Below are positions 25,034 through 61,452 of a DNA stretch of 64,000 nucleotides, piece after piece. The translations under genes were made by a program, and so were the position numbers. The notes under the pieces were generated by a model. That model ran no database searches. It worked only from the letters and a program-made list of their open reading frames with translations, and was not told where the DNA came from. Source of the DNA: a virus. Within the stretch, counting starts at the first letter, position 1. Every line of letters starts with the position of its first letter. The stretch spans positions 31,823-95,822 of the IMG/VR virus record IMGVR_UViG_3300042922_000911; one strand, written 5' to 3'.

Positions 25034-25215
25034 CATAGGGGACAGAAACGCCCCCTTGCTCGACGCCCCAAGCGGCCACAGCAGCGCCTTTCGGCCGCGC
25101 TGGCCGGTTATGTTACTTGCATTGTTGAGCATTGATAAGTTTCCAGTCGAAAGTTTGCATACTAGCGCCTGAGTGTTTTACATTGGGAAACATTCGGCAG
25201 GAAGGAGCCACCCGC
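25034..25215. other. leader region of the ribonucleotide reductase gene
   Basis: This 182-base gap holds a CAGCGC/GCGCTG hairpin inside a larger GGCC-rich inverted repeat (about 25070-25105), then an AT-richer stretch with an extended -10-like TTGCATACT about 60 bases before the gene. The ribosome site GGAAGGAG precedes the ATG. No cobalamin riboswitch consensus could be recognised despite the B12-dependent product. Confidence 0.45.
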
Positions 25216-27678: not shown

Positions 27679-28509
27679 ATGAAACCCGTTACCCTCAACC
27701 TCGTTAGCTATTCAGGCGGCAAGGATTCCGGCGCGCTTGTGCTGCACCTCATGGAGCAGGGCGTGCCGAATCTGGTGCTGGTGTTCTGCGATACCCATTG
27801 GGAACACCCGGCGACCTACCGCTATGCCTACGAGTTCGCCCAGGCCGTCGGCCTGCGCCTGCGGGTCGTCGATTCCGAGGGCATGGTGAACCTGTGCCTT
27901 CGGAAGAAGCGCGCCCCGTCTACGCGCGTGCGGTTCTGCACCCAGGAATTGAAGCTCAAGCCGTTTGAACGCTACGTCAAGACCCTGCATGAGCAGGGCT
28001 TCGATACGGTCGTCTGGATCGGCGTGCGCGCGGAGGAAAGCCCCGCGCGCGCCAAGATGCCCGAGAGCGAGCATTCGGATTACTACGATTGCGAGGTGCG
28101 ACGCCCCATCCTCGGTTACACCATCGACGACGTGAAGGCCATTCACGCCCGCCACGGCCTCGAGCTGAACCCCTTGTACAAGCTCGGCATGGGCCGCGTG
28201 GGCTGCATGCCCTGCATCATGGCGAATAAGGACGAGCTGAAAAGCATTGCCGACCGCTTCCCCGAGGTGTTCGACAAGGTGGCCGATCTTGAAGACAAGC
28301 TCGGCCGCACGTTCTGGACGGCCGGGGACACCCCGACCCGCTTCTGCTCCAAGGTGGCCGTCACGAAAGACGGCCGCCATGTGCCCGTGCCGACCGCGCG
28401 GGACGTGAGGACGTGGGCGACGACGGAGAGGGGCCAGGCACCGGGGCAAGTCCCGATGTTTGAACCCCCTGTGCCCGCGTGCAGTTCCAAATACAACCTA
28501 TGTGAGTGA
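27679..28509 (+). CDS. PAPS-reductase / DndC-family PP-loop protein
   Basis: This 276-residue protein has the PP-loop YSGGKDSGAL at residues 11-20, VFCDTHWEHPATY at ~35-48, GVRAEESPARAKMPE near 116-130 and NPLYKLGMGRVGCMPC near 165-180. Together with FCTQELK and TRFCSK, the cysteines could ligate a 4Fe-4S cluster, as in CysH and DndC. Phage members of this family are common, and none has a well-settled role in this setting. Assimilatory sulfate reduction, thiolation of nucleobases or a DndC-like step are all possible. Placement next to modification and dNTP genes favours a nucleic-acid role. Confidence 0.75.
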   Translation: MKPVTLNLVSYSGGKDSGALVLHLMEQGVPNLVLVFCDTHWEHPATYRYAYEFAQAVGLRLRVVDSEGMVNLCLRKKRAPSTRVRFCTQELKLKPFERYVKTLHEQGFDTVVWIGVRAEESPARAKMPESEHSDYYDCEVRRPILGYTIDDVKAIHARHGLELNPLYKLGMGRVGCMPCIMANKDELKSIADRFPEVFDKVADLEDKLGRTFWTAGDTPTRFCSKVAVTKDGRHVPVPTARDVRTWATTERGQAPGQVPMFEPPVPACSSKYNLCE

Positions 28510-33805: not shown

Positions 33806-34756
33806 ATGGGCCGCGTGAACCCCGAAGAGCAAGCGAAGCGCGTCGCGACGGTCGTCGCCATGATGCAAAAGGCCGTCAAGGAAGGCCGCAAGGTCAAGCC
33901 GGATGCCGTCGCGCAGGCGATCGGCGTCAGCGCGCCCACGGCCCGCAAGCTGATCGAGGCGGCCGAGCGGATCGTCGGCACCAACGCCATGGCCGAAATG
34001 ATAGTCAAGAAGCACCGAGAGCCCGGCCCCGCGCCGAAGGCCTCGACCCCGCCTGTTACACAGGAGAAACCAGCCAAGGGCAAGCCGGGCCGCAAGCCCA
34101 AGGGCGTTACACAGGAAGACCGGGACGCGGCGATCGCCGTCGAGGCCGAGGTCGTGCCCCCGGCCAAGGGCGGGAAGCTGGTCGCCCTGGACGGCGGCAA
34201 GAAGGGCAGGAAGGGCGCTCGCGAGCCGGTCGAGGACAAGGGGCACGGCTCGCAGACCGTCGCGCTCCCCGCGGGCGTCACCTCGTCGGGCGTGCCGGCC
34301 GAGCTGCGGGACACGCCTTTCGAGATTCCGGTGCAGCTCGTCGCCATCACGCAGCGATTGAACGCCATGATGGACCGCGCCGAGCTCGACTTGCAGATCA
34401 TGCGTACCTGGGTCTTCGGCAACCCCGAGGGCCAGCGCGTGCCGGGTATGTGCGAGGGCTGCGGGGAGGACTACGCCCGCGCGTTTCCCGATCGCCCCAT
34501 GTCGATGTTCGGCCCCGCCGGCACGCCGACGGACGTTGCGAACATGTACAAGACCTTCACCTCGATCGTGAAGGAGGTGACGAAGGCCCTCGAAACCCAC
34601 AACGACGTGCAGGCGACGTTCTTCACGCTGCAACAGCTCGAGCGGTTCATGGACGACACCGCGCGCGCCGTGCGTGACGTGTGCCCACAGCACGCGCAGG
34701 CGATCGCCGCGAAGATCCGCGAATACCAGATGGAGTACCGCTCCAATGGCCGTTAG
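33806..34756 (+). CDS. probable terminase small subunit
   Basis: This 316-residue protein directly precedes the large terminase. Residues ~28-55 (KVKPDAVAQAIGVSAPTARKLIEAAE) form a helix-turn-helix suited to recognising the packaging site. A basic, lysine/proline-rich linker follows (KGKPGRKPKG, AT-hook-like), and the C-terminal ~160 residues are helical, as in small terminase oligomerisation domains. CEGCGEDYARAF may add a metal site. Two TTACACAGGA copies (34056, 34107) encode VTQE in the linker. Assignment rests on position and the helix-turn-helix. Confidence 0.55.
   Translation: MGRVNPEEQAKRVATVVAMMQKAVKEGRKVKPDAVAQAIGVSAPTARKLIEAAERIVGTNAMAEMIVKKHREPGPAPKASTPPVTQEKPAKGKPGRKPKGVTQEDRDAAIAVEAEVVPPAKGGKLVALDGGKKGRKGAREPVEDKGHGSQTVALPAGVTSSGVPAELRDTPFEIPVQLVAITQRLNAMMDRAELDLQIMRTWVFGNPEGQRVPGMCEGCGEDYARAFPDRPMSMFGPAGTPTDVANMYKTFTSIVKEVTKALETHNDVQATFFTLQQLERFMDDTARAVRDVCPQHAQAIAAKIREYQMEYRSNGR
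34056..34117 (+). repeat. two TTACACAGGA copies in the small-terminase linker
   Basis: Direct copies at 34056-34065 and 34107-34117, both in the frame that reads VTQE, flank a KPGRKPKG basic segment. Confidence 0.8.
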
Positions 34757-34770
34757 GAAGCCGGGCAACT

Positions 34771-36852
34771 ATGGCAGTTAGGAAGACGATCGACCCTGAC
34801 GAGGCTTACACGCGCTTCGCCAACAAGCTCGAGGCGGGCTTAGACCGCACGGGCGAGGTCGTGTCGCTCGTCGAGTTTTTCGAGGGCAAGGAATGGGCGG
34901 GCATGCGCCTGCGCCCCCGGCAACGCCTGCTTTCCAAGGTAATCGACAACGCGGTTAACTTCCGGCCGCTCGAAACCGACATGGCCGTGATCCGGCTCGA
35001 CGAGCAGCACGCGCCCAAGGGCTACAACGCGGATAAGTTTGAGGCCGTCATGCCTCACTGTACCTGTCGCGACGCCGACGGCTACGTGCTGTATGACGAG
35101 CTGGCCGACTACGAACACATGAAGGCGCGCAAAAACGAGTACGCGCGCATTTACGAGAACCTGGACCCTGATTCCGACGACCCGGTGACGATCGTCCTGA
35201 TCATCGGCCGTGGTGGCGGCAAAACCACATGGTCGGCGGGCGTGGCGGGGCACCAGGCGCACCGGGTTCTCTCGCATGACGACCCGCACGGCCTGTTCGA
35301 CCTCGAAAAGCTGAAACCGCTTGCGATTCAGAACGTCGCGACGGCCAAGAAGCAGGCCAACGAGTTCTTTCAGGCGTTCATCAGCCTCATTCGGCGCATC
35401 AAGTGGTTTGACGGGCGCTATCGCCCGCCGACCGCTGATCTCGTCGAGTTCTCCGACGACCTCGCGGCCGAAAAGTCCTCGAGCAACAGCAAATCGGGCC
35501 GTGGCCGCGATACGGTCGTCTACATTCACGACGAGATCGCCTTCTCCGACAAGACCGACGGCCCGCGAAGCGACAAGGCGCTCTTCGACGCCATCTATTC
35601 GGCCGTCAAGACCCGCGCCAAGGGCAAGGGCATCGTGCTTGTGTTCAGCTCCCCGGCAGAGGCCGACGGCGTGCTGTACGAGCTGTACAGCCAAGCCGAG
35701 CGCGGCTTGCTGGAAAACAGCATTGTGGTTCAGATTGCGAGCTGGGAGATCATTCCCGGCGAAACCAAAGACACCTACAAGGCGCAGTACCGGCGGGATG
35801 AAGACGTGGCCGACGCCGAGTTCGGCGCGCAGTTCTACCGGGGCGCTAAGAACCTGCTGCCCTTCGTGCGCGACAAGTTCGCCTCGATGGAGGGGCATTA
35901 CCGGGCGATCGCCGGGTCGTCGTTCCCGCTGGCCTTCAATTGGGTCGAGGCGATCGACGAGGACACGCTTGCCCATTGGGGCCGGAAGCTGAAAGTCGAG
36001 CGCAAGGGCTACGAGAGCGCCGAGCAGTACCGCGTCAAGGTTGCCGAGGCGCTATTCAAGTGGTGGCGCAAGTTCCCGCGCACCATCCATATCGACACGT
36101 CGGAAGGCAGCGATCGCACCGCGCTCGTCATGTGCCACGTCAGGGGCGGGCGCGTGTGCGTTGACCTCGTTCGGGCGTGGGATCGCGAGGTCGGCTATAC
36201 CCTCGAGCTGGTGCCCTTCGTGAAGATGCTCGCGAGCTACCTCGACGTTCAACAGGTCAGCTTCGACCAGTTCGCCTCGATCCAGGCCAAACAGGACTTG
36301 GAAGAGGCCGGGCTGAACGTCATCAAAATGCAGTTCACGGCCCAAACGAACGACGCGATCGCCCGCAATATACGTCAGGTCGTGCTTGAAGACCGGCTCG
36401 CCATGTACCCGATTCCCGAAGAGCTGCGCGATCGCATTCCGCGCCTGCTGGATTCGGGCGAGCCATGGGACGAGGATTCGACGCTGTGGCCCTACGTGAG
36501 CGCCTACATTCTGCGCGAGGAAATGGCCGTCGCCAAGAAGACCATGAAAGGCCGTCTGATCGCCGCCGAGGCCCCCACGGCCGGCATGACGCAGACCGAC
36601 GACACGCTCGACGCGCTCATGGCCTGCGTCTACCAGGCGATCGACCTCGCGGGCGGCGCGGCCAACTTCTTCACCATCCCGCGCACCGCCGCGGGCCTGG
36701 GCGAAGACGACGAGCTGCCCGAGAACCGTCGCCCCGGCCGCGAGCTCGTCGAGGTGGAATGCCCCCACCACGGCGGCCGCGTCCTCGTTGACCCCACGGA
36801 TCGGATCGTGGCCTGCCCCGAGTGCGGCCACGGCATCCAGACCCGCATGTGA
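34771..36852 (+). CDS. terL: terminase large subunit
   Basis: This 693-residue packaging motor has Walker A GRGGGKT near residue 146, Walker B VVYIHDE near 250, and a motif III-like VFSSPAE coupling segment near 292. A C-terminal RNase H-like nuclease follows (HIDTSEGSDRTALVMCHV around 445; VSFDQFASIQ; DTLDALMACV near 615). It ends in a zinc ribbon, CPHHGG...CPECGHG, which is an extra feature for TerL. The chosen ATG is the one in MAVRKTIDPDEAY. A near-duplicate of its start (ATGGCCGTTAGGAAG at 34746) lies 25 bases upstream, out of frame. Confidence 0.9.
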   Translation: MAVRKTIDPDEAYTRFANKLEAGLDRTGEVVSLVEFFEGKEWAGMRLRPRQRLLSKVIDNAVNFRPLETDMAVIRLDEQHAPKGYNADKFEAVMPHCTCRDADGYVLYDELADYEHMKARKNEYARIYENLDPDSDDPVTIVLIIGRGGGKTTWSAGVAGHQAHRVLSHDDPHGLFDLEKLKPLAIQNVATAKKQANEFFQAFISLIRRIKWFDGRYRPPTADLVEFSDDLAAEKSSSNSKSGRGRDTVVYIHDEIAFSDKTDGPRSDKALFDAIYSAVKTRAKGKGIVLVFSSPAEADGVLYELYSQAERGLLENSIVVQIASWEIIPGETKDTYKAQYRRDEDVADAEFGAQFYRGAKNLLPFVRDKFASMEGHYRAIAGSSFPLAFNWVEAIDEDTLAHWGRKLKVERKGYESAEQYRVKVAEALFKWWRKFPRTIHIDTSEGSDRTALVMCHVRGGRVCVDLVRAWDREVGYTLELVPFVKMLASYLDVQQVSFDQFASIQAKQDLEEAGLNVIKMQFTAQTNDAIARNIRQVVLEDRLAMYPIPEELRDRIPRLLDSGEPWDEDSTLWPYVSAYILREEMAVAKKTMKGRLIAAEAPTAGMTQTDDTLDALMACVYQAIDLAGGAANFFTIPRTAAGLGEDDELPENRRPGRELVEVECPHHGGRVLVDPTDRIVACPECGHGIQTRM

Positions 36853-46478: not shown

Positions 46479-48164
46479 ATGGCGCGGAAATACATCAATC
46501 CGCTTTTCAGCGGCCAAGCGAACAAGCAGCAACCGGCGGCCCCCTCGATGGGCGCGCTGAACCCGTTGCACGCCCTGCTGCAAGACCCCAACGCCATGGC
46601 CTGGGCGTCGCAGGGCATGTACCAGCCAGCGGCCAATTCGCTCCACTGGTCAACGCTTCGCGCCATGGCGCGCACCTGTCAGCCGGTGGCGGCAACGGTG
46701 CTGACCCGTCAGGATCAAGTCGCCAACTTCGCCAAGCGCCCGAGCTACCCCGGCGACTGTGGCTTCAAGATTCGCATGAAGGACGAGGAAGCCAAGCCGA
46801 GCAAGGCGGCCATCAAGGCCATGCGCGCGCTCGAGGACATTATTCTTCGTTGCGGTGTCGGCCCCAACCCCGGCCGCGCGCGCCCCGGCTTCGACCATTA
46901 CCTTCGCATGCTGACCCGCGACGGCCTGACCCTCGACGCCATGGCCACCGAGCTGCGGCCCGACCGCAAGGGGCGTCTGTTCGACTTCTGGGCGATCGAC
47001 GGCGCGACCATCCGGCACGCGGCCCCCTCGTATGAGGCCAACCAGGCCGCGAAGACCGGGTACGGCAACTTCGCGGGCATCGTCGGCGACGGCTACGGCG
47101 GCGTCGTGGTGCCGTCTGACGCCGAGATTGCCTTCGTTCAGGTCGTGCAGGGGCAACCGCAAGCCGAGTTCACGCAAGACGAGCTTGCCTACTGGATTCG
47201 CAACCCGCGAACCGACCTGGAAGCCAATGGCTACGGCGAATCCGAGCTTGAATTGCTGATCGAGGTGATCACGGGCTACCTCAACGGCATGAGCTACAAC
47301 ACGCGCTATTTCACCAGTGGCAACATTCCCGAGGGCGTGCTGTCGGTCGTCGGCAAATACTCGAAAGACAACCTCGACGCCTTCATTCGCTATTGGAACA
47401 GTATGGTGCAGGGCGTCGCGAACGCTCACCGCATCCCGATCATGGGCATGGCCGACGGCAAGGGCCTCGATTGGACGCCGATCAAGGCGAACAACCGCGA
47501 AATGCAGTTCTCCGAATGGCTCGACTTCCTCACGACCATCACATGCGCCATCTACCGGATCGACCGCGAAGAGCTCGGCTTCGGCAACAAGGCCAAGGGC
47601 GAGGCCGGCGGGCTGGGCGGCGACGGGAACAACGACACGACCCTGACGCACTCGCAAATCAAGGGCCTGCGCCCCCTGCTGATGCGGATTCAGAACGGCA
47701 TCAATGAGGACGTGATCGCCAAGCTCCCCGGCGCGGAGGACTTTGAATTTGTCTTCACGGGCATCGAGCCCGACCAGGAGGACAAGAAGATCGACCGGGC
47801 GCAGAAGATGATCGCCGCCGGCCTCGCCACGCCCAACGAAGAGCGCGCCAAGTTCGACATGGAGGCCGTTCCCGAGGATCACCTGTGGGGCGACGCCCCC
47901 GGCAACGCGACGCTCTATCAGGCCTGGTCGATGTGGCTTCAAGCCTCGACCGAGGCCGCGAGCGGCGGCGACGAGGGCGACCCGAATGCTGACCCCGATG
48001 CCGAGGGCGACGCCGCGGCCCCCGGCCAGCCGGGCGCAGCTCCCAAGGGTGCCCCTGGCGACGAGGAAGAGGACGACGGCGGCGATCGCCCCGCCGGCCC
48101 GCCCAAGTTCCCCAAGATCGCCGAGGACGGCACCGAATCTGACGACGAAGAAGAAGACCAGTAG
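46479..48164 (+). CDS. portal protein
   Basis: This 561-residue protein forms the dodecameric portal through which DNA is packaged. It has the helical MYQPAANSLHWSTLRAMAR start, LDAMATELRPDRKGRLFDFW, SELELLIEVITGYLNGMSYN and RYFTSGNIPEGVLSV. The EWLDFLTTITCAIYRIDREELGF region is typical of HK97/SPP1-like portals. The C-terminal ~70 residues are acidic and proline-rich (DEEEDDGGDR), like many portals. Its own promoter and terminator (copy C) set it apart from the upstream small genes. Large terminase is 10 kb upstream, an unusual gap. Confidence 0.8.
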   Translation: MARKYINPLFSGQANKQQPAAPSMGALNPLHALLQDPNAMAWASQGMYQPAANSLHWSTLRAMARTCQPVAATVLTRQDQVANFAKRPSYPGDCGFKIRMKDEEAKPSKAAIKAMRALEDIILRCGVGPNPGRARPGFDHYLRMLTRDGLTLDAMATELRPDRKGRLFDFWAIDGATIRHAAPSYEANQAAKTGYGNFAGIVGDGYGGVVVPSDAEIAFVQVVQGQPQAEFTQDELAYWIRNPRTDLEANGYGESELELLIEVITGYLNGMSYNTRYFTSGNIPEGVLSVVGKYSKDNLDAFIRYWNSMVQGVANAHRIPIMGMADGKGLDWTPIKANNREMQFSEWLDFLTTITCAIYRIDREELGFGNKAKGEAGGLGGDGNNDTTLTHSQIKGLRPLLMRIQNGINEDVIAKLPGAEDFEFVFTGIEPDQEDKKIDRAQKMIAAGLATPNEERAKFDMEAVPEDHLWGDAPGNATLYQAWSMWLQASTEAASGGDEGDPNADPDAEGDAAAPGQPGAAPKGAPGDEEEDDGGDRPAGPPKFPKIAEDGTESDDEEEDQ

Positions 48165-48391: not shown

Positions 48392-48622
48392 ATGACCAAG
48401 CAGCTCACCGTCGAGGTTTACAACGTCCTGCCGATCTCGCAGGGCCTTTCCAACCTGTTCATGCGCCCCAAGCAGGCGCAGCCCAACAAGCCCGCCGACG
48501 GCCCGCATGAGGTCTTCGGCGACAACCTGGGTTCGGGCGTGTTCCGGCTCGAGGTGCCCGACACCGTGGCGGCCGAGTTCAAGGTCGGCGACGAGCTGAC
48601 CGTCACGATCGCCAAGGCCTAG
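48392..48622 (+). CDS. small head-region protein
   Basis: This 76-residue protein has a beta-rich pattern (QLTVEVYNVLPISQ, GVFRLEVPDTVAAEFKVGDELTVTIAK) resembling a small immunoglobulin-like or decoration domain. It sits between portal and the MuF fusion. Decoration or head-completion is possible; not recognised. Confidence 0.5.
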   Translation: MTKQLTVEVYNVLPISQGLSNLFMRPKQAQPNKPADGPHEVFGDNLGSGVFRLEVPDTVAAEFKVGDELTVTIAKA

Positions 48623-48691: not shown

Positions 48692-51600
48692 ATGGGCGCG
48701 CGAGCGAAAGACTGGCGGCTCAAGCCCGGCGTGCGCGTCGTCCTGGTGGACGACGCCGGCCGGGTTCTTTTGCTGCGTCGGCCTGACGCCGAAGAACTGT
48801 ACGGGGGGCATTGGAACCTCCCCGGCGGCGGCCGTGAGGCGAACGAAACGCCCCTCGGCGGCGCGCTCCGAGAGCTGGAAGAAGAAACCGGCCTGACCGG
48901 CACGCCTACGGGCGCATCGGTGCCGTTCACGTTCCCCGGCGGCACGGGCCGCGCGTTCCTGGTCAGGCACCCGGCCGGGCGGCTCAACGTCGAGAAGCGC
49001 GAGAGCGACGCGGCGCAATGGTTCTACCCCGGCGACTTGCCGCATAACCTGATGCCGCCGACCGCCGAGATCGTGACCCTGCTCGCCGGCACCGGCGGCG
49101 ATCGCCCCATGGCCGACCTTCACCTGACCGCCGATCGCCTGCACGTCGAGCAATGGGTCGCCGAGGCCGTGCGCCCCTGGCTCGAGGCGGCCGTCAAGCT
49201 GAAAGCCAAGCGCCTGACCCTGACCAAGGCGCTCGACCAAGAAGGCCTCGACGAGCTCGCCATGCGTCGCATGCGGCAGCTCCGTCGGCCCGGCTATGAG
49301 CCGGTCGAGGGCCGCGATCTTTGGGTGTCGGCCCCCACGGGTGACGACGACGAGGGCGAAGAGGTCCTGTTTCGATCGCTCGTTCGCGCCCGCAAGATGG
49401 GCATGGCCGAGGCTGCGCGGGCGATCCTGACCGACGCGCGAGCGGGGCAGGTTCCCGAGGGGCACCAGCGCGGCTACCGGAAAAAGACCCTCGAGCGGCT
49501 GCGCTCGACGGCCCGGCGCACGGTGCGCCTGGTCAACGCCACGACCGAGAAGCGGCTTGCGCCGCTCGCGCTCGAGGCCGAGGGCGCAGACGTGTTCACG
49601 GTCATGCAGAAGCTCTACGACATGAGCCGCGCCGAGACAATCGCGATCGACGTGGTGGCGCAGGGTTACGCCGAGGGCGTCATGGAAGTCCTCGCCGGCC
49701 ACGGCTACGCCTTCGTCTACCCGCGCACGATGGGTGACGACAAGGTTTGCCCCGTGTGCCGCGCCCGCGAGGGCGTCAAAATGACGATCAAGCGGTTCCT
49801 CAAGGCCTATCCCTTGCACGTTCGGTGTAGATGCTACCCGCACACCAGCCCCCTCGCCGAGCCGCGCGCGCTCAACTGGCGGGCCAAGAAGACCGCCAAG
49901 GTCATTATGAAAGGACTTGCGACCATGGAAACGAGCCTCATGGCCCTTCGCGCCCTCACGGGCGAGCAGCCCCCCATGGCCGATCTGGTCAAGGCCTTCG
50001 GCGGCAAGGCCGACCCCGAGAAGCTGCGCGAGATCGCCAAGAAGCGCACGCGCGGCCCCGGCGGCAAGTTCGCGGCGGGTAAAGTCACGCCCGAAGAGAT
50101 CAAGAACATCAGGCAGAAAGCCGGTATGGACGCCGGTGCGCCCCCGAAGGGCACCAAGGACCACACCATTCACCACCTCGGCAAGGCCGCGAAGCGCGAG
50201 CGCGACGCCCAGGCGGCGGCTGACGCCCCGGTGCCCATGCAGGCCCCCGGCGACCCGACCGACCCCAAGGGGCCGACCGTCGGGCCGCAGGGGCCGAAGG
50301 CCAGCACCAAGGGGGCGATCGACGACAAGAACCCGCAGCACCTCGTCGAGGCGGCGAACAAGGCCCTCGAGCAGCTCCGTACCCTCAAGCCCGGCACGCC
50401 CGAGTTTGAACACGTCAGGACGCAGTACGAGGGCCTGCGGCAGGCCGTGCGCGGCTGGAACAAGTCGAAGGGCGAGAGCGCCAAGCCCAAGCCCGTCGAG
50501 GTGCCTCCCAAGCCCGACCACTTCGACGGCGAGCTGCGAACCCCCCGACAGTTTGAGCTCGCGGCCGCCGCGGCGACCACGAAGGAAGACGCGATCGCCC
50601 TCGGCAAGCATTTCGAGGCCGTGGCGCAGCGCGACAACCTCGGCAGCGACTACAAGGACACCTGGAACGAGATCAAAGCGGCGATCGCCAAGCTCCCCAC
50701 GCGCGAGGAAGTCGAGCATGGGAAGGCCGAGAAGCAAGCCAAGCTGGAAGGCATCAAGGCGAAGAGCGGTGCGCCCTCGACGCCCGCCCCTGGCCCCGCG
50801 CCCAAGCCCAAACCCAAGAAGGAAGACAAGCCCCAAGAGTTCACGGCGGCCGAGCCGACCGAGGAAGAGAAGAAGGCGAACGCCGAGGCGATCGCCGCCG
50901 TGCCGCACGGCCCCGGTGCCGACTTCGCGAGCGCCCCGCCAGCCGAGGACAAGCCCAAGCCGAAGAGCAAGCAGCCCCACGAAATGACGTTCAGCGAGTA
51001 CCGCGACAGCTACCACGCCGACGTGTCGGGTTCCCGACCCGAGAACCACAAGGCGATCATCAGCCGTGCGCTCGAGCGCGGCGAAACCGTTCCCGACCAC
51101 GTTCTCGACGAGCATGGCGGGCACGGCCGCGCGGTCGTCGAGGGCATGAAGACCTACAACGCCCCGCAGACCGAGGAAATGAAGCAGGAAGAGGGCCGCA
51201 TTGCAGCCGCCGAGGCCGCTGACGGCCGCAAGCCCGCGAAGCCCGACCCGGCCGACGGAGGGGGCGAGGGGGCTGCGGCCGAGCTGCCCGAGGGCGTGAC
51301 GCGCAACGGCGACGGCTACGACTTGGGGCCTGACGCTGACGCCTTTGAAGTGCCGGCGACGGTCAAGAAGCCCGACGGCAGCGACTACGAGAGCTTTGGC
51401 GACCAAGCCAGCGACGAAATGCACCTCGGCCGGTATCAGCCGGGCTACGGCTCGGCGGCCTGGTCGGGCTACTACGATCACGACGAGGAAACGGGCGCGA
51501 AGAGCTGGGATCTGGAAGACGCCCGGCAGATCCTCAAGCTCGACCACGCGATCGGCTGGAAGCAGGCGTCGAAATGCCTGGAAGCCGCCAAGAACGACGA

Positions 51601-52621
51601 CGGCACGGTTCACCCCGAGAAGCTGGCCCAGGCCGTCGCCAAGCACATGGACTGGAAGCGGCAGCAACCGGCGGGCCGGCTCTTCCCCGAAGAGTACGCC
51701 CACATGAAGCTGCATGACGCGGCAAGCAAGGAGAAAGACCCCGCGAAGGCGCGCGCCATGCGGTCGGCCGCGAGCCTCGCGGGGAGCTTCCCCACGGGCG
51801 AAGCGCACCACGACGCCCTGCTCGCGCCCCTGATGGAGGAACAAGCCCACAACTACGACCGGGCGGCACAGGCCGACGCGGCCAACGCCGACCCCGAGAA
51901 GCGCGGCAAGCGCGTCGGCAAGGATGCCCAATTCGCCATGCACCACACCGTCGTCAGCTCCAACCTGACGGCGATCGCCAAGCACCGGATCGCGACCGGG
52001 CAAGAGCCCTTCCCCATCCAGTCGGCGGGGTCGGTCAAGCTGCACCGCGCCGCAGGCCACAAGCTGCCCGACAACGCCACGGGCATCGGGGTCGATAAGC
52101 CGAAAGACACCGATAGCGCCCCGGCCGCAGCTCCAGAGCCCAAGGGCGGCGCGGTCGTTCCGGCGGGGCCGCAGGCTGTCGCCCAGGCCGACGCCCCCGG
52201 CGCGGTCGCTACACAGGAAACCGGCTCGAGGGCTGTTACACAGGAAGCCGAGCAGGGTGGCGCGGCCGTTACACAGGAAGACGCTACACAGGAAGCCCCC
52301 GGCGGGGCCGTGGTGCCCGCGCCGAAGCCCGGCGCGGTGACGGAGGGGGGCGCAGATGGCGACGCGGCAGACGTTGGGGGCAATCCTGCTGATGGCGGGT
52401 CTTCTAGCGACGATCGAGGCGCGGGGGAGGACGCCGCACCCGGCGGGGATAGCGGCGGCGATCGCCCTGACGGCGGCCCTGTACCTGGCGGCGGCGTGAA
52501 GCCCGCGGCGGGCAAGAAGGACGACAAGCATGGCCAGCACATCGGCAAGTTCGTCAGCGGCCTCATGGACGTGCTTCGCAAGGTGAACGCCGAGGTGGAC
52601 AGCGAAAACCTCAAGTCGTAG
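48692..52621 (+). CDS. Nudix hydrolase fused to MuF-like head morphogenesis protein
   Basis: This 1,309-residue protein starts with a Nudix domain. The box is complete at residues 46-68: G46 with E52, then R60-E61 and E64-E65, G67 and L68. It should hydrolyse a nucleoside-diphosphate-linked substrate. A MuF-like domain follows: helices to ~residue 350, then CPVCRAREGVKMTIKRF and HVRCRCYPHTSP, the cysteine/histidine end typical of Mu gpF head proteins. A low-complexity linker and a HEMTFSEYRDSYHADVSGS module near residue 766 are shared with the next gene. The final ~130 residues are disordered, glycine-rich and hold four TTACACAGG copies. Being near the portal, it is probably a virion protein carrying an enzyme into the cell. 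Confidence 0.7.
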   Translation: MGARAKDWRLKPGVRVVLVDDAGRVLLLRRPDAEELYGGHWNLPGGGREANETPLGGALRELEEETGLTGTPTGASVPFTFPGGTGRAFLVRHPAGRLNVEKRESDAAQWFYPGDLPHNLMPPTAEIVTLLAGTGGDRPMADLHLTADRLHVEQWVAEAVRPWLEAAVKLKAKRLTLTKALDQEGLDELAMRRMRQLRRPGYEPVEGRDLWVSAPTGDDDEGEEVLFRSLVRARKMGMAEAARAILTDARAGQVPEGHQRGYRKKTLERLRSTARRTVRLVNATTEKRLAPLALEAEGADVFTVMQKLYDMSRAETIAIDVVAQGYAEGVMEVLAGHGYAFVYPRTMGDDKVCPVCRAREGVKMTIKRFLKAYPLHVRCRCYPHTSPLAEPRALNWRAKKTAKVIMKGLATMETSLMALRALTGEQPPMADLVKAFGGKADPEKLREIAKKRTRGPGGKFAAGKVTPEEIKNIRQKAGMDAGAPPKGTKDHTIHHLGKAAKRERDAQAAADAPVPMQAPGDPTDPKGPTVGPQGPKASTKGAIDDKNPQHLVEAANKALEQLRTLKPGTPEFEHVRTQYEGLRQAVRGWNKSKGESAKPKPVEVPPKPDHFDGELRTPRQFELAAAAATTKEDAIALGKHFEAVAQRDNLGSDYKDTWNEIKAAIAKLPTREEVEHGKAEKQAKLEGIKAKSGAPSTPAPGPAPKPKPKKEDKPQEFTAAEPTEEEKKANAEAIAAVPHGPGADFASAPPAEDKPKPKSKQPHEMTFSEYRDSYHADVSGSRPENHKAIISRALERGETVPDHVLDEHGGHGRAVVEGMKTYNAPQTEEMKQEEGRIAAAEAADGRKPAKPDPADGGGEGAAAELPEGVTRNGDGYDLGPDADAFEVPATVKKPDGSDYESFGDQASDEMHLGRYQPGYGSAAWSGYYDHDEETGAKSWDLEDARQILKLDHAIGWKQASKCLEAAKNDDGTVHPEKLAQAVAKHMDWKRQQPAGRLFPEEYAHMKLHDAASKEKDPAKARAMRSAASLAGSFPTGEAHHDALLAPLMEEQAHNYDRAAQADAANADPEKRGKRVGKDAQFAMHHTVVSSNLTAIAKHRIATGQEPFPIQSAGSVKLHRAAGHKLPDNATGIGVDKPKDTDSAPAAAPEPKGGAVVPAGPQAVAQADAPGAVATQETGSRAVTQEAEQGGAAVTQEDATQEAPGGAVVPAPKPGAVTEGGADGDAADVGGNPADGGSSSDDRGAGEDAAPGGDSGGDRPDGGPVPGGGVKPAAGKKDDKHGQHIGKFVSGLMDVLRKVNAEVDSENLKS
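52209..52294 (+). repeat. four-copy TTACACAGGA cluster in the disordered tail
   Basis: Copies at 52209 (CTACACAGGAA), 52236 (exact), 52269 (exact) and 52284 (CTACACAGGAA), all in the frame giving ATQE or VTQE. They sit in a GA-rich, low-complexity segment. Confidence 0.85.
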
Positions 52622-52740: not shown

Positions 52741-55700
52741 ATGAGCCTCGCCCACAACCCCTTTTTGCGCCGCATGTCGGCCACTATCCTCGCGCTTTCG
52801 GTGAACCTGCACCAGGCCGACGAGCAAGACGCCCTCGAAAAGGCGCTCGTCGATGTGAAGCAGCACAGCCGCGTCACGAAGAGCGGCAAGACCGTCACCG
52901 TGAAGCAGCACCAGCGCGCCGTTCTCTCGGGCGCTGAGAAAACCGACGTGGTTCACCACCTCGCGCAGGCCATGGCCGACAAGGCCAACGGCGGCCGCGC
53001 GCGCATCGACCACCACGGCCACGCGCTCACGGCCGCGCACGCGATCGCCAAGAAGACCGGCAAGGCCGTCCACGTCACCAGCCACAAGGACGGCGGCTTC
53101 GTGCTGTCGCACGCGGCCCCCAAGAAGGCGGGCGTCGGCTCGATCGCGGTTCACGGCGACGGCAAGCACGTCATGCACCACCCCGAACACGGCAAGGTCG
53201 AGCTGAGCCGCGATCACGCGGCCAAGGTCTTGAAGGCCAAGCACCGCCCGGTTCAGGTGACGGCCCAGGCCCCCTCGAGCGAGAAGGCCCCGGCCCCCGA
53301 GAAGCCCAAGAAGGCCAGCGCGGCGCTCGCGGCCGTGCCCGTGCAGCCCAAGAAAGCCATCGTCCATTCCGAGGTGCCCGGCGGGCCGAAGTACGCGAGC
53401 CTGCACGCCGACGAGATCAACGTCGATGCCAACGCCTACCAGTTCAAGGACGGCGGCGATCAGCATGGCGTCACCGATCGCTTGAAGAGCGTGACGAGCT
53501 GGGATGCGACTTCCGGCCTCATGAACCCCATCCTGGTTCATGAGCGCGCCGACGGCACGCACTACGTCGTGGACGGCCACCAGCGCACCGGCCTCGCCAA
53601 GCGGCTCAAGGAACAGGGCCACGACATTCCCCCGCTCAACGCCGTGATCTTCAAGGAATCCGACGGCTACACCGTGGACGAAATGAAGCGGATCGGCGCG
53701 CTCGCCAACATTCGGCAGGGCACCGGCACGGCCGTCGATATTGCCAAGGTCATGAAGGTGCGCGCCTTCGACGAGCATGAGCGCGCGACCATCCCCGCCG
53801 GCAGCAACGAGGACTTCAAGGACGGCGAGGCGATCGCCAGCCTGTCGAAGGAAGCGTTCGACTACCTGACCACCGCTGGCGTCCACAAGGACCCCAAGAA
53901 GAACGCGCAGTTCGCGGCGATCGTCGCGCGCAAGATCAGCGACCCCAAGGAACAGGTCGCAGCTCTTCGCGAGCTCAAGAACGACCCGCCCGCCGGCCGC
54001 GAGGAATGCGAAGACGTGGTGGACGAGCTTGCATCCGAGGGGTTCGCCAACAAGCACGTTCAGCGCGACATTTGGGGCAACGAGAAGCAGACCGAGAGCC
54101 TGGCGAAGCCCACGGCCGAGATCAAGGCGACCGTGCGCCGCATGCTGGAATCGGAAAAGAGCGCCCTCGGCAACGCCGTGAGGCACAAGGCCCGGCTCGA
54201 GGCGGCCGGTAACAAGATCGACGAGGCCGCGAACAAGAAGGGTTACGACGCGGCCGATACACTCTCCAAGGTCCTCAAGGAGTTCAGCGGCCGTAACACG
54301 CAGAACGAGGTGAAAGACGCCATCAAGGAGGCAGCGAAGCAGTATGCAACAGGAGAAATCAGCCGGAAACGAGCCGCCGATCGGGTCGTCGAAGCCCTCG
54401 AAAGCTTCTACGCCGGGCATGCGGGTGGCGGCAGCGGTCACAGCGTACCACGAAGCGCATCAGCAGGCCCCGAAACTCTTTTCGAGGCAGACACCCCCAT
54501 CCAAGTAAGCAGCGATCAGCTCGGCTTGCTCGGCGGGGAGGCATCCGGCGCGGGCGTCGGTTCCCCTGGCCCGGCCGGGATGCCCGCCCCGGCCGCGAGC
54601 GAGCGCGATCAACTGGAAGCGGCCGTCGCGGCCAAGCTCGGCGGCGCGGTGCCCAAGGAGGTCGGCCACGTTCTCGACATGGCGGGCAACCCTGACAAGG
54701 TGTATGCCGCGATCCAGCTCGCCGAGAAGCGCGCGGCCGAGTACAAAAATTCCCGGCACGAAGACGAGCGCGCCATGGTCGATGCCTACAAGCACGCCGC
54801 GGCGGCGATTCTCGACACGCCCACGTTCAAGGCCCGCGATAGCGTCATGCGTGCCGAGGACGCGAAGCGCGCCAAGATCGACAACGGCAAGAACGCCCCG
54901 GCGGGCAAGCCGACCCCGCCGGCCCCCAAGGGCGAGCCGTCGGTTCTCGACAAGCTGAAAGCCGAAATGGACACGGCGCAGGATGCCTTCGTGGCCAAGC
55001 ACATGGAAGACCTCAAGCCGCACATGCGCGACGAGCTCGATCACCTGGAAGCCAAGTCGTCGATCAACGCGGCGTTCTCGGCGAACCTGACCGACGCCAA
55101 GCGCCATGACGCCGTGGAATCGGTCAAGCGCCAGTTTGTCGCGGGCGTTCAGGGCAAGGGCGCGCTGACCGACGCCGATCACACCGAGCGCGGCATGCGC
55201 GCCGACGCCATGAAGAAGCAAGCCGCCTACCACGCGGCCTCGACGGCGCACGACGAGGCCCGCTTCAAGGGCGGCGACGCGGCGGGCACCAAGAAGGCCA
55301 AGGAGGACGCTCACGCCGCCTGGAAGGATGCCGAAAACAACCTGACCCGCCACCTGACCGGCAACAAGGCCCCGGCCGCGAGCGAGGCCCCGAAGGCTGG
55401 CGCGTCGGCCGACGAGCTGCACGCTGCCTACCAGGCGGCGGCGTCGAAGGCCAGCCGCGCCATGGGCCGCGATAGCGCGGCGTTTGAGCAGCACATCGGC
55501 GAGGCCAACAAGCACGCCGAGGCCTACAAGCAGCTCACCGGCAAGCCGGTCCTGCACCATGGCAAGGATGCCGGCGGCGATCGCCCGGCGAGCAAGCCGC
55601 AAGGCCCCTCGCTCGAGGGCCAGAAGGGCTCGACGCCCGGCGCTCACGAAATGACGTTCAGCGAGTACAAGAACAGCATCCACGCCGAAATTGGCGGGTC

Positions 55701-58700
55701 CAGGGCCGAGAACCACAAGGCCTACATCGCCCGCGCCCTCGAGCGGGGCGAGAACGTGCCTGACCACGTTCTTTCCGAGCATGGCAACTACGGCCACGAC
55801 GCCAAGGCGGCGATCGCCGAGGCCAAGCAGCCCATGAGCGCCGAGGCCCGCAAGGAAATGGAGGCCGAAGAGCGCCGCATGGGCGCGGCTATGCGTCGCG
55901 GCGGCGGCAGCGGCCCGCGCAAGCCGCGCGGCGAGGCCGCGAAGCTGACGAAGGCGCTCGGCTACTCGACGCTTTCGCCCTTCACCGACATGTTCCTCGA
56001 CATGGTGAAGGCCATGGTCAAGCAGCACACCCGCCGGTCGAAGAGCGGTCAGACCTACGTCGTCAAGGAACACCACCGCAAGACCCTCACGAAGAGCGAG
56101 CGCGAGGATCTGGTGAAGCACCTGGCCGCGAAGCTCGGCGAGGGCGCTCACCCCAAGATCAAGACGGCCGCCGGTGCGATTCGCGCCGCCAAGGCCCTGT
56201 CGAAGCACACCGGCAAGGCCGTTCACGCCTTCAAGGGCGAGGACGGGCATTACCGCGTGTCGCACGACGCCGACCACGCGGGCAAGCACCGCAAGGTCGT
56301 GACCGCGCACGGCGGCAAGGCGATCATCACCGACACCCAGACCAAGGAAGCCCGCGAGCTGCGGAAGACCGATTACATGCCCCTGCATGCGATCCACCCG
56401 AAGCACCTCACGCCGGATGAGGTCGTGAAGCAGCGCGCCCAGATCCGCGAGCGCATCGAGCAGGGCAAGGGCGTGAAGGCCCACGTCCTCGACGCGCACA
56501 AGGACCTCAAGCGGCACAAGGCCCGCCGCGACCAGGCGCAGATGAAGGCCGCGAGCTACCTCAAGGAATCGAAGGCCCGCGCCGCGGCCCTGCGCGCCGA
56601 GAAGAAGCAGGCCAAAGAAGCCGCGCAGCTCTCGGCCGAGCAGAAGAAGGGTTTCGAGAAGGTCGCCGAGCAGTTCATGGCCGACGAGCGCAAGGCCTTC
56701 CCCGACATGGAACACGACGAGCTCGTTGCTCGAGCGACCCGCTCCCTGATGGACGCCACCAAGGACGCCGATCACCCCGGCATCCATGACGCCGTGGCGC
56801 ACGCCATCGAACACATCAAGGGCATGAAGCCCAAGAAGCTGACCCCGAAGCCGAAGACGGCCCCCGGCGAGTTTGCTGCGGCCGAGCCGACGGCGGCCGA
56901 GAAGAACCGCTCGATGCTCGACCGCGCGAAGGGCGTGACCGACTTGCTCGCCGAGCTGGACAAGCACGGCGTTCGCATGTCGCGCGTCGAGCAGCGCGCC
57001 GTCGAGCAGGGGAACGCCGTGGCGATCGCCACCGTGCGCGCCCGGCTCGAGAAGGTCAAGGCCAAGGCCGCGAAGGGCCAGGCCCCGGCCGCGCCCGCCG
57101 AGGCCCCCGGCAGCGGCAAGGCGGCGGCCGAGGCCGACAACGCCAAGCGCCGCAAGCCGAAGTCTGTGTCCCTCGCGAACGTCGAGGTCGGCGATACCCT
57201 GGTTGCGACCAAAGACAGCATTGCGGGCGATCGCGGCACCCTGTTCACCGTGACCGGAACCGACCAGGAAGGTCACATTTCGTACCGCTCCCACGACACC
57301 GGCTCGGTCATGACCGCCAAGCCGGAAGACCTCAAGCGCATTGGCGTCCAACACCAGCAGACCGACGACGGCCCCACGTTTGAGCAGGCGAAGGCCAAGC
57401 AGGCCATGACCGGCAAGGAAGCCGCCGAGGCCGACAATGCGGCCGACAAGGACGAACACGGGCTCAATTCGGCGCAGCGCGCCGCCGTCGAGCGCCTGAC
57501 GGCCCGTGCGGCCGAAATGGGCTCGACCCCGATCGCCCTGGTTCGCAGCAACACCGGGCAATTGCGCTGGATGACCCAATCGGCGCACGGCAACCATGTC
57601 ATGTCGGTCGTCCTGTTCGACAACGGCGAAACGTCGGGCGGCGGCACCCGCGTCATTGGGCCGAACGACACCGTTCTGATCGACTACAAGAAGGGCGAAG
57701 AGCCCGCGAGCGGCAAGAAGCCGGGCGCGCAGCCGGGCAACGACAACGCCAAGAAAGACGGCGCGACCGAAGACGACAAGGCTTTCGGCCCCAACAAGGG
57801 CAAGACGCTCGCCGAGCTGCCCCCGAAGGTCGGCGATCTGATTTACAGCGCCCCCGACAACCCCGAAGACGGCGTGCTGATGGTTACGGGCATCAAGCCG
57901 GGCGGCTACGTGACGGCCGTCGCCGTGTCGCCGTTCAACCCCAACGATGGGTATGACCTCGGCTTCAACACCAACGTCCATTACAGCACCGAATCGGATC
58001 ACGCCGTCTTCGCCCCGGCCGAGCTGGCCGACCTCGCGCACACCGGCCGTCAGGCGAAGGACGTGCAAGCGGTTCTCAAGAAGGCCCCCAAGCTCGACCC
58101 CGCCGACATGGCGAGCGCCGAGCGTGCCCAGGCTCGCGCCGAGCGCGCGGGCGGTGCCCCCGCGGCCCCGGCCGCGCCCGCAGCCCCGGCCCCCGCGCCT
58201 GTGGCCCCGGCCGCGCCGGCCGCGAGCGTCAGCAACCCCCTCGGCCTGGTGCGCCGGAACGAGGCGCTGAACGGCATCGAAGTCCAGTTCTACGAGAAGC
58301 CCCACGCCGACACGCTCGCGGGGCTCAAGGCCGCTGGCTTCCGTTGGCACAAGGTTCAAAAGGTCTGGTACGCCAAGCACTCGCCCGAGCGTGAGGACGC
58401 GGCGCACCTCGCCACCGGCGGGCAGCTCCCGTCGATGAAGCAGACCCCCACGGCCGCGACCGGCGACGAGGACACCGGCCGCAACCCCGGCGGTCAGCCC
58501 GGCAACCAGAACGCCTACAAGGGCGGGCCGAAGGACGAACCCACCTCGAGCAAGGCCCCGGCCGCGCCCGACGAGCCCGCTCACCTGTTCCCGACGCACT
58601 CCGACGACATTCCCGCCGCGAAGGGCGTCACCAGCGAGAGCGTGCATACCGTTCGCCCGCGCTACAACAACGAGCGCATCAAGGTTCGCGCCGAGCGCGG

Positions 58701-61452
58701 CGGCTGGGACTACTACGAGTACCGCGACCCCGCGCACCCGCACGGCGCGACGTTCATGGACGTGGCCGGCGCGGCCAAGGGCCATTGGGAAACCTACGTG
58801 CCCGAGGACGTGAAGGCCAAGCACGAAGCCGACCAGGCCGAGAAGAAGGCCCAGGCCGACGAGCGCGCCGCGAAGCGTTTCGAGGTGCATGAGAACGACG
58901 GCAAGCACTTCGTCGTCCATGCGCCGTCGAAGACCATCATCGACCGGGGCGGTCACGCCACGAAGGAAGAGGCCGAGGGCCTGATCGACCGCCTGCGCGG
59001 CTCGCGCTTCGACGTGGATACGGCCCCCGAGCAATGGATGCCCTACTTGAACGCCGAGGGTAAGAAAGAGCTGGCCGAGCGCATTCGCCCCGGCAGCACC
59101 GCGCCGAAGGCCGAAGAGCCGAAGAAGGACGAGCCGAAGGCCCCCGAAGCGCCGAAAGCCGAGGAAGCCAAGCCCGAAGAGCCGAAGGCCAAGGCCCCGG
59201 CCAAGCCCAAGGCGAAGGCCGAGGGCGCTGCGAAGCCTGCCTCGAGCGAGCCGGCCGACACCGGCCGCGACGCCGAGCGGGCCAAGCTGAAAGAGGCCGT
59301 CGAGAAGGCCGAGGCGGCTTACAGGGACTTCCATTGGGCCTACCCCGGCACCGTGAAGAAAGAAGTCGGCGTGCCCCTGTGGGAGGCGGTCGAGAAGGCT
59401 CGCGCCGCGCTCTCGCGCTTCGATCACCCCGAGAAGGACAAGTCGCACCTCGATTACAAGGACGTGGGCGAGAAGATCGGCGGCGCGCGCAAGGACACCT
59501 GGCGCTCGATCGAGGCCGGTGATTCGACGTACAGCACGATCGATTGGGATTCGCTCGACGAAGAGCCCGACCAGGCGCAGCGGGTGATCACCCGTAGCAA
59601 CCTGCTCGCGCACTCGACCCCGCAGCACATGAAGGACGCCGGCCGACACGCGGGCGTCGCGTACCTGACGCACCACATTCTCATGGCGATCGCCCAGAAG
59701 CCCGCCACCGACACCGCGGCAGCTCGTCGCGCCTACGCGAAGGGCGTCGAGTACGTGCAGCGGTCGCTTCAAAACGCCAACACCTTCCAAGACGTTGTGA
59801 ACGCCGTGAGCTCGATCCGCGACCAGGCGCGCGGCTACCACATGGAGCCGGATGAAAAGATGGAGCATGACCGCCTGAAAGCGGCGTCGAGCGAGGCTTA
59901 CAAGGTCTACAAGTCGTTCGATGCGGGCGTGAACGAGGCCTACCAGGCCTGGCAGGCGGCTGGCCATGCGGTCAACGAGATCAGGTACAACCGCCGTCTG
60001 AAAGACGAGGACAAGCGCGCCGCGCTCATGAAGCCGCTCGAGGTCGAAGCCGAGAAGGCCCGCGCCAAGTGGCAAGCCAAGCTCGACGAGAAGCGGCCCG
60101 CCGAGGCGGCTTACGATGCGGCTTCCAAGGCCTTCGGCGAGTTCGCCAAGGTTCTGCGCGATCGCGACGAGAAGAACCCCGAGGGCTGGAAGAACGCCAT
60201 CGGCATGCTCGGCGATCGCTTCGACACCATGCTCAAGGGCAAGGGCGCGGTCTGGGAGAAGCACAGCCCGCACGCGCAGCGCAAAGTCGCGGCCGACGAT
60301 TGGAGCTGGATGGAGAAGCAGGACGCCGCCGGCAACCCCGAATCGAAGACGCCGCGCGAGAAGAAGGAACGCACCCTTCCCGAGTGGGAGCGGTACGTTC
60401 CCGCCGAGGTCGAGCGCAGCGGCGGCGCTGACGTGGGGCCGGTGAAGCCCGAAGACCTCAAGGCGCGGTTCAACCTGCGCGCGGTCGAGTACGGCAACTA
60501 TGTCTCGCAGGACGAGGCCGCGCACCATACCAAGTGCGCCACCGAGGCCCTTCAAGACATGGCCGACGCCCTCGGCCTCGCGCCCGATCAGGTCAGCTAC
60601 GGTGGCCGCCTCGCGCTCGCCTTTGGCGCTCGCGGCAACGGCCACGGCCTCGCCCACTACGAGCCGGGCAAGAAGGTTATCAACATCACCAAGAACGCCG
60701 GTGGCGGCTCGCTCGCGCACGAATGGGGCCACTTCCTCGACAACATTCTCGCCCAGGTGGCGCATGAGGGCGAGGGCGGTCACAACAGCTTCGGCAGCCA
60801 CGGCAAGCACGGCCCCGCCATGCCCGAGAAGGTGATCCACGCCTTTGAAGAGCTGCGGAACGCCATGATGGCGGGCGACATCAAGCCCACGAAGGCCGTC
60901 AAGCCCGGCAACAAGCAGTACCGCGCACAGGCGGCGATCGACGAGATCATTGCCCAGGCTGGCGGTGACGGGCAAAAGGCCTACGACGCCATGGCCAAGA
61001 ACCCGCGCTTCGCCTACTACCTGGACAAGCCCAAGCACGCCAAGCAGTACGCCGAGTACGTCGCGACGAAGACCGGCCACACCATTCAGGTTCCCACGGG
61101 GGAGCCGGGCCGTTCCGTCTACCTGCACACGGCGACCGAGATGGGCAAGTATTGGGCGCTCGAGCATGAAATGTTCGCCCGCGCGTGGGAATCCTACGTT
61201 CAAGACAAGCTCGAGGCGAAGGGCATCCGTAACAGCTACCTCGTCAGCGGCACCGACATGACCAACGACTTCCGCGACCCCGACAGCAAGAAGGCCTCGG
61301 GATTCGCGTACCCGCAGGGCGAAGAGCGCCAGCGCACCAATGCGGCGTTCGACAAGCTCATGGACGCGGTGAAGGCGACCGGCATGTTGGAAAAGGCGAT
61401 CGCCCTCGCCGACGCCGACCAGGAGCTCGCGTGGTTCCTCGCTGGCGTGTAG
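52741..61452 (+). CDS. giant polyvalent protein (ParB-like plus zincin-like domains)
   Basis: This 2,903-residue protein resembles the polyvalent proteins that phages deliver with their DNA. Residues ~35-130 and ~1085-1180 are a duplicated helical module (VKQHSRVTKSGKTVTVKQH and VKQHTRRSKSGQTYVVKEH). A ddrB/ParB-like nuclease domain lies at ~215-345 with DADEINVDANAYQFKDGGD-type residues and DGHQR at 278. HEMTFSEYKNSIHAEIGGS near 975 repeats a module of the preceding gene. A small FRWHKVQKVWYAKHSPER domain is near 1867. The C-terminal LPD1-like zincin has AHEWGHFLDN, with HEWGH at 2660-2664 giving the HExxH metal motif. Long charged linkers (EKPKK, EEPKA repeats) separate domains. There is no signal peptide. 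A GGAGAG ribosome site precedes the ATG. Confidence 0.75.
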   Translation: MSLAHNPFLRRMSATILALSVNLHQADEQDALEKALVDVKQHSRVTKSGKTVTVKQHQRAVLSGAEKTDVVHHLAQAMADKANGGRARIDHHGHALTAAHAIAKKTGKAVHVTSHKDGGFVLSHAAPKKAGVGSIAVHGDGKHVMHHPEHGKVELSRDHAAKVLKAKHRPVQVTAQAPSSEKAPAPEKPKKASAALAAVPVQPKKAIVHSEVPGGPKYASLHADEINVDANAYQFKDGGDQHGVTDRLKSVTSWDATSGLMNPILVHERADGTHYVVDGHQRTGLAKRLKEQGHDIPPLNAVIFKESDGYTVDEMKRIGALANIRQGTGTAVDIAKVMKVRAFDEHERATIPAGSNEDFKDGEAIASLSKEAFDYLTTAGVHKDPKKNAQFAAIVARKISDPKEQVAALRELKNDPPAGREECEDVVDELASEGFANKHVQRDIWGNEKQTESLAKPTAEIKATVRRMLESEKSALGNAVRHKARLEAAGNKIDEAANKKGYDAADTLSKVLKEFSGRNTQNEVKDAIKEAAKQYATGEISRKRAADRVVEALESFYAGHAGGGSGHSVPRSASAGPETLFEADTPIQVSSDQLGLLGGEASGAGVGSPGPAGMPAPAASERDQLEAAVAAKLGGAVPKEVGHVLDMAGNPDKVYAAIQLAEKRAAEYKNSRHEDERAMVDAYKHAAAAILDTPTFKARDSVMRAEDAKRAKIDNGKNAPAGKPTPPAPKGEPSVLDKLKAEMDTAQDAFVAKHMEDLKPHMRDELDHLEAKSSINAAFSANLTDAKRHDAVESVKRQFVAGVQGKGALTDADHTERGMRADAMKKQAAYHAASTAHDEARFKGGDAAGTKKAKEDAHAAWKDAENNLTRHLTGNKAPAASEAPKAGASADELHAAYQAAASKASRAMGRDSAAFEQHIGEANKHAEAYKQLTGKPVLHHGKDAGGDRPASKPQGPSLEGQKGSTPGAHEMTFSEYKNSIHAEIGGSRAENHKAYIARALERGENVPDHVLSEHGNYGHDAKAAIAEAKQPMSAEARKEMEAEERRMGAAMRRGGGSGPRKPRGEAAKLTKALGYSTLSPFTDMFLDMVKAMVKQHTRRSKSGQTYVVKEHHRKTLTKSEREDLVKHLAAKLGEGAHPKIKTAAGAIRAAKALSKHTGKAVHAFKGEDGHYRVSHDADHAGKHRKVVTAHGGKAIITDTQTKEARELRKTDYMPLHAIHPKHLTPDEVVKQRAQIRERIEQGKGVKAHVLDAHKDLKRHKARRDQAQMKAASYLKESKARAAALRAEKKQAKEAAQLSAEQKKGFEKVAEQFMADERKAFPDMEHDELVARATRSLMDATKDADHPGIHDAVAHAIEHIKGMKPKKLTPKPKTAPGEFAAAEPTAAEKNRSMLDRAKGVTDLLAELDKHGVRMSRVEQRAVEQGNAVAIATVRARLEKVKAKAAKGQAPAAPAEAPGSGKAAAEADNAKRRKPKSVSLANVEVGDTLVATKDSIAGDRGTLFTVTGTDQEGHISYRSHDTGSVMTAKPEDLKRIGVQHQQTDDGPTFEQAKAKQAMTGKEAAEADNAADKDEHGLNSAQRAAVERLTARAAEMGSTPIALVRSNTGQLRWMTQSAHGNHVMSVVLFDNGETSGGGTRVIGPNDTVLIDYKKGEEPASGKKPGAQPGNDNAKKDGATEDDKAFGPNKGKTLAELPPKVGDLIYSAPDNPEDGVLMVTGIKPGGYVTAVAVSPFNPNDGYDLGFNTNVHYSTESDHAVFAPAELADLAHTGRQAKDVQAVLKKAPKLDPADMASAERAQARAERAGGAPAAPAAPAAPAPAPVAPAAPAASVSNPLGLVRRNEALNGIEVQFYEKPHADTLAGLKAAGFRWHKVQKVWYAKHSPEREDAAHLATGGQLPSMKQTPTAATGDEDTGRNPGGQPGNQNAYKGGPKDEPTSSKAPAAPDEPAHLFPTHSDDIPAAKGVTSESVHTVRPRYNNERIKVRAERGGWDYYEYRDPAHPHGATFMDVAGAAKGHWETYVPEDVKAKHEADQAEKKAQADERAAKRFEVHENDGKHFVVHAPSKTIIDRGGHATKEEAEGLIDRLRGSRFDVDTAPEQWMPYLNAEGKKELAERIRPGSTAPKAEEPKKDEPKAPEAPKAEEAKPEEPKAKAPAKPKAKAEGAAKPASSEPADTGRDAERAKLKEAVEKAEAAYRDFHWAYPGTVKKEVGVPLWEAVEKARAALSRFDHPEKDKSHLDYKDVGEKIGGARKDTWRSIEAGDSTYSTIDWDSLDEEPDQAQRVITRSNLLAHSTPQHMKDAGRHAGVAYLTHHILMAIAQKPATDTAAARRAYAKGVEYVQRSLQNANTFQDVVNAVSSIRDQARGYHMEPDEKMEHDRLKAASSEAYKVYKSFDAGVNEAYQAWQAAGHAVNEIRYNRRLKDEDKRAALMKPLEVEAEKARAKWQAKLDEKRPAEAAYDAASKAFGEFAKVLRDRDEKNPEGWKNAIGMLGDRFDTMLKGKGAVWEKHSPHAQRKVAADDWSWMEKQDAAGNPESKTPREKKERTLPEWERYVPAEVERSGGADVGPVKPEDLKARFNLRAVEYGNYVSQDEAAHHTKCATEALQDMADALGLAPDQVSYGGRLALAFGARGNGHGLAHYEPGKKVINITKNAGGGSLAHEWGHFLDNILAQVAHEGEGGHNSFGSHGKHGPAMPEKVIHAFEELRNAMMAGDIKPTKAVKPGNKQYRAQAAIDEIIAQAGGDGQKAYDAMAKNPRFAYYLDKPKHAKQYAEYVATKTGHTIQVPTGEPGRSVYLHTATEMGKYWALEHEMFARAWESYVQDKLEAKGIRNSYLVSGTDMTNDFRDPDSKKASGFAYPQGEERQRTNAAFDKLMDAVKATGMLEKAIALADADQELAWFLAGV

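Follow-up and report, generated by a model that had tools for sequence, protein, structure and literature searches.

A Nudix hydrolase domain fused to a diverged MuF head protein beside the portal gene of a viral contig

The Nudix-MuF gene and its surroundings

The DNA analysed here, which we call the window, is a 64,000-nucleotide stretch (G000:C1:31823-95822) of a 95.8-kb linear viral contig. Just downstream of its portal gene, with one small open reading frame (ORF) between the two, lies a gene that joins a Nudix domain to a MuF domain, which is the position expected of a MuF protein. The features discussed below, with window coordinates and, where recorded, strand, are:

120-998: baseplate-like protein
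25132-27648: ribonucleotide reductase
34681..36852, + strand: terminase large subunit (phrog_2, E 1.5e-10)
46479..48164, + strand: portal protein, 561 aa (PF04860, E 5e-25; phrog_12, E 4e-45)
48392..48622, + strand: 76-aa ORF in the gap between the portal and Nudix-MuF genes, matching no known family
48692..52621, + strand: Nudix-MuF head protein, ORF of 1309 aa, with a homolog in contig L003 and even codon-position GC
48722..49075, + strand: Nudix domain, residues 11-128 (PF00293; model pLDDT 91; PDB Z 17.5 to MutT 4dyw)
48827..48895, + strand: Nudix box GGREANETPLGGALRELEEETGL, residues 46-68, fitting the strict pattern
49373..49843, + strand: MuF domain, residues ~228-384, ending in DDKVCPVC...PLHVRCRC
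49985..50785, + strand: C-terminal module, residues ~432-698, matched by blastp to a 631-aa ORF of contig L012
50978..51211, + strand: repeated segment, residues 763-840, with a copy in residues 969-1050 of the 2903-aa ORF
52741..61452, + strand: 2903-aa polyvalent-type protein (LPD1, PF18796, E 2e-21), with a CLCA_X-like stretch

The gene set fits a contractile-tailed phage. Polyvalent proteins carry several effector or LPD domains in a single polypeptide packaged in the virion; by that measure the 1309-aa protein offers Nudix and MuF, and the neighbouring 2903-aa ORF offers LPD1 together with its CLCA_X-like stretch, which NF041907 matches under its cut-off. Elsewhere in the window, a phosphoadenosine phosphosulfate reductase gene (27679-28509; phrog_424, E 2e-62) is a phage-borne metabolic gene, and a 1294-aa protein without an assigned function (7808-11692) matches phrog_877 over its C-terminal part (E 3e-122).

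The Nudix-MuF fusion is genuine. The ATG start of the ORF is preceded by GAGG seven bases 5' (read by eye), and codon-position GC does not change along 48692-52621, so no frame switch lies within it. Contig L003, from another metagenome, encodes the same Nudix-MuF order with 51% identity across residues 8-410 and an intact box, and the fusion is therefore not the product of a frameshift or start error. That concern had been raised in the preliminary description; the independent homolog, the ATG with its GAGG and the even codon-position GC together rule out a frameshift, assembly or start-site artefact. A 1388-aa antisense ORF was set aside as a by-product of high GC, since protein homology falls on the + strand. 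Among annotated phages no direct relative of the full-length sequence was found at E <= 1e-5 and its N-terminal 403 residues gave weak matches only, genome contigs yielded no relative, and a profile scan of viral contigs with a two-sequence alignment returned the L003 contig alone.

The middle of the protein had been called MuF-like at the outset, and this part is real, if diverged. Pfam PF04233 (residues 306-381, E 0.011) and TIGR01641 (9e-5) both score it under their cut-offs. Residues 228-381 match phrog_19480, 'head morphogenesis', at 8e-5, and hhalign of a two-sequence profile against the minor head protein of phage StB27, which carries a PF04233 annotation, gave 95.8% probability. Searching with the MuF region by tblastn retrieved weak matches (E 0.3-5), most of them to proteins with a minor head or MuF annotation. 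A Cys/His motif, CxxC...H..CRC, occupies residues 349-381 and is kept in L003; it lies within the DDKVCPVC...PLHVRCRC ending, which we take to be the MuF signature. On these sequence comparisons we regard the MuF assignment as secure, though the domain has diverged. Structure prediction of residues 1-403 from two sequences reached a pLDDT of 39.

Beyond the MuF domain, the C-terminus of the protein matched no Pfam family, leaving Nudix and MuF as its only domains. It does hold short modules found elsewhere: residues 432-698 align with the start of the 631-aa ORF of L012 (32% identity, E 6e-22, blastp), and residues 763-840 recur in the neighbouring 2903-aa ORF (~80 residues, 57% identity, E 3e-22). 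A weaker copy of this ~80-residue segment is also held by L012.

The Nudix domain and its substrate type

With Pfam PF00293, whose cut-off is 21.1 bits, residues 11-128 score 62.7 bits (E 4.6e-17), and the box GGREANETPLGGALRELEEETGL fits GX5EX7REUXEEXGU at all positions, in agreement with the complete Nudix box first reported at residues 46-68. A search of the window in six frames gave this single match to the strict pattern, which arose in 0 of 20,000 shuffled versions of the protein. AlphaFold predicts a Nudix fold (pLDDT 91) in a model built from 46 viral Nudix domains, and the matches listed from the PDB, at Z 15.4-17.5, are to Nudix proteins, the top one being MutT 4dyw.

All catalytic box positions are kept in the window protein and in contigs L003, L012 and L020, and the box dead in relatives that the preliminary description had warned of was not encountered. 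Invariance of the box within our 46-row alignment (A5) is no evidence on this point because its rows were picked by the box pattern; conservation was therefore counted only from relatives found otherwise, namely L003 (through the full-length protein) and L012 (through the portal). The Nudix domain thus appears, from its sequence, to be an intact enzyme.

Which substrate such an enzyme would cleave was approached by comparing a profile of the three closest Nudix domains with four single references (RppH, MutT, T4 NudE and NudF). RppH gave the best of the four scores (E 5e-11 over 101 columns), with MutT practically tied (1.3e-10 over 109 columns). T4 NudE showed no similarity beyond the box, hhalign aligning 35 columns around it at E 2e-6, and for NudF (2.4e-5) the alignment was confined to the box and the PGG stretch. 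ADP-ribose pyrophosphatases of the NudF type have a proline 16 residues after the Nudix box. That proline is absent here, residue 84 being glycine and the proline standing at residue 82, 14 after the box. Structure picks out no substrate, because the 50 PDB matches listed, with MutT, Ap4A/Ap6A hydrolases, NudC, NrtR and an ADP-ribose pyrophosphatase among them, fall within ~2 Z units. Together the sequence comparisons, each with a single reference and not decisive, favour a MutT/RppH-like domain over the T4 NudE or ADP-ribose hydrolase types, and the ADP-ribosylated targets suggested at first are accordingly not favoured.

Relatives, other carriers and published precedents

The contig L012, whose portal is 55% identical to that of the window, carries a split version of the arrangement. 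A Nudix ORF of ~135 aa, with an intact box, directly follows the portal from a GTG at 9824 and is followed, with an overlap of four bases, by the 631-aa ORF. Searching the L012 contig with the window's own MuF region gave no match. Nudix, MuF and C-terminal modules are thus separable, since L012 has a separate Nudix, a homolog of the C-terminal region and no MuF that we could find; in the window, MuF sits exactly between the two modules that adjoin in L012. The contigs of the window, L003 and L012 each contain exactly one Nudix domain, which in every case lies a short way downstream of the portal. PF04233 found MuF in 4 of 50 other Nudix-bearing viral contigs, and its absence from the others is weak evidence because, at the threshold used, PF04233 also fails to detect the MuF of the window itself, a caveat that is weaker for L012, given the query used there.

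A further close Nudix domain, 46% identical over the aligned domain and 53% in the best tblastn segment, lies in L020, where it forms the N-terminal part of a fusion with a DUF2213 head maturation protease (PF09979, E 1e-39; phrog_530, E 5e-83). In a maximum-likelihood tree the Nudix domains of the window, L003, L020 and L012 (as L021) group as a single clade (support 100/99), and the branches of the tree with good support require the head-fused label to have changed at least three times. Deposited phages show independent fusions of two kinds: Nudix-protease in Shewanella phage QDWS (gp44), Pantoea phage PdC23 (gp04), Klebsiella phages Chronis, RothC and RothD, and Yersinia phages, and portal-Nudix in Bcep781 (gp17), Bcep43, Bcep1 and BcepNY3. 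L079 likewise encodes a portal with a C-terminal Nudix domain, and L066 a viral Nudix fused to ART-PolyVal. Two other contigs, L056 and L067, encode viral proteins that combine 2H phosphoesterase, Nudix and DUF5661. In L100, a 649-aa MuF protein (1351-3297) lies upstream of a Nudix-protease; its C-terminal region resembles an ADP-ribosyltransferase by eye, which Pfam did not confirm.

Fusions of this kind have been described before. Phage Nudix domains joined to MuF, portal or capsid-processing peptidase are reported in section 3.5.2 of a paper that predicts packaging in the head and injection (Iyer et al. 2022, PMC9503650), and the window protein is therefore a new example of a described fusion type. 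The preliminary description, which knew of no standard phage head protein with this order, was in substance mistaken, although the passages of PMC9503650 on Nudix-MuF fusions give no domain order. As in the window, the fusions treated there place Nudix on MuF in a late head-gene module. They are described as T4 NudE-like, whereas the window domain resembles T4 NudE at the box only and MutT/RppH over most of its length. The idea of packaging is thus already published, and our literature search found no test of it in virions.

Other systems share part of the architecture. In the Nudix-DUF2213 proteases (L020, QDWS gp44, PdC23 gp04), too, the Nudix is N-terminal and its partner is a head assembly protein encoded near the portal, although this partner is a protease/scaffold protein rather than MuF, and the L020 domain belongs to the same clade as the window's. 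The Bcep781-like gp17 proteins likewise put Nudix on a head component; there, in contrast to the N-terminal domain on MuF in the window, it is C-terminal on the portal and comes from a different Nudix branch. MuF and polyvalent effectors have also been described (Iyer et al. 2017, PMC5512222), with MuF as the carrier, as here, where the protein also adjoins an LPD1 polyvalent-type protein. Those effectors are mainly C-terminal to MuF, whereas the enzyme in the window is N-terminal and its protein ends in a C-terminus with short repeated modules and no family match. New in the present analysis are the split relative in L012, the close Nudix on the L020 protease and an indication of a MutT/RppH-like clade.

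A proposed role in infection and its alternatives

We propose that the window encodes a MuF-anchored Nudix hydrolase that would be packaged in the virion, enter the cell and cleave a nucleotide-linked molecule to the benefit of infection, a reading towards which we lean somewhat. The MuF domain would bind at the portal or inner capsid and carry the active N-terminal hydrolase into the virion, from which the full protein or a processed fragment would enter the cell along with the phage DNA. Inside the host, the Nudix domain would cleave a nucleoside-diphosphate-linked molecule, with dinucleoside polyphosphates, other nucleotide alarm signals and RNA 5' ends or caps as candidates, and the effect would favour infection. 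The suggestion of a virion-associated Nudix acting at entry thus survives as the best reading, because the fusion is genuine and adjoins the portal, while its ADP-ribosylated targets are not favoured and its lack of precedent does not hold. Packaging would be in keeping with the occurrence of the same Nudix clade on MuF (L003) and on a DUF2213 protease (L020), of other Nudix domains on the portal (L079, Bcep781 gp17), on proteases (QDWS, PdC23) and on ART-PolyVal (L066), and with the neighbouring LPD1 polyvalent-type protein. Hydrolase function would be in keeping with MutT and RppH matching most of the domain. If packaged and active, the protein would be a compact, testable instance of a nucleotide-cleaving enzyme delivered with the genome before phage gene expression, and the related contigs provide a natural comparison, with one Nudix clade found on MuF, on a protease and alone beside the portal.

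Anchoring by MuF is not essential in the L012 lineage, where the Nudix has a small gene of its own and no MuF is detectable in the contig, and shared late expression could account for the attachment to several different head genes just as packaging could. We considered whether the Nudix acts late in the producing cell, in nucleotide-pool cleaning or RNA-cap degradation, the MuF fusion being a merger of neighbouring genes for which injection is unnecessary. The stand-alone gene in the same slot of L012 and the resemblance to MutT speak for this, as does the ribonucleotide reductase, whose presence indicates that nucleotide-pool functions matter to the phage; repeated attachment to MuF, portal and protease in different phages would, however, be unexpected of a pool-cleaning enzyme, and we judge this alternative unlikely. 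Somewhat less probable, in our estimation, is an injected enzyme that strips host RNA 5' ends or caps in the manner of RppH, destabilised host messages favouring takeover: RppH scores best among the four references, yet MutT is practically tied with it and structural scores are level across many Nudix families. Nudix folds also act as sensors in NrtR regulators, to which the predicted structure is highly similar (Z 15.8), so a non-catalytic role in capsid structure or ligand sensing was weighed as well; with the catalytic box positions intact in all four of the window protein, L003, L012 and L020, we regard it as improbable.

The packaged and injected hydrolase that we prefer can be set beside what occupies the same place in other phages. 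Pseudomonas phage Dolphis and Aeromonas phage ST4, whose portals fall in the same broad family, encode after the portal what by eye is an ordinary MuF-motif protein, although Pfam reported no MuF in either. Directly after related portals, Bordetella phage PHB04 (L008:8566-10047) encodes a RelA_SpoT domain (PF04607, 30.6 bits against a cut-off of 27), and L013:4420-5844 matches the same family below its cut-off. These few cases are compatible with the slot after the portal being a swappable position for nucleotide-signal enzymes. A broader and more tentative proposal, which we hold as doubtful but worth stating, is that a MutT/RppH-like head-associated clade, distinct from the previously described NudE-like group, moves among MuF, protease and stand-alone settings, that it may act on capped RNA or a nucleotide alarm signal and not on ADP-ribose, and that the slot itself is swappable.

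A further motif, V-x-[AQ]-H-x-R...G...V-x-x-H-x-R, recurs in several phages, usually near the start of head-module polyvalent-type proteins. It is found at 52855 and 56017 of the window, both in the 2903-aa ORF, at 9901 in L003, at 12279, 14863 and 16177 in L012 and at 13496 in L008, and may serve these proteins as a common tag for targeting or binding.
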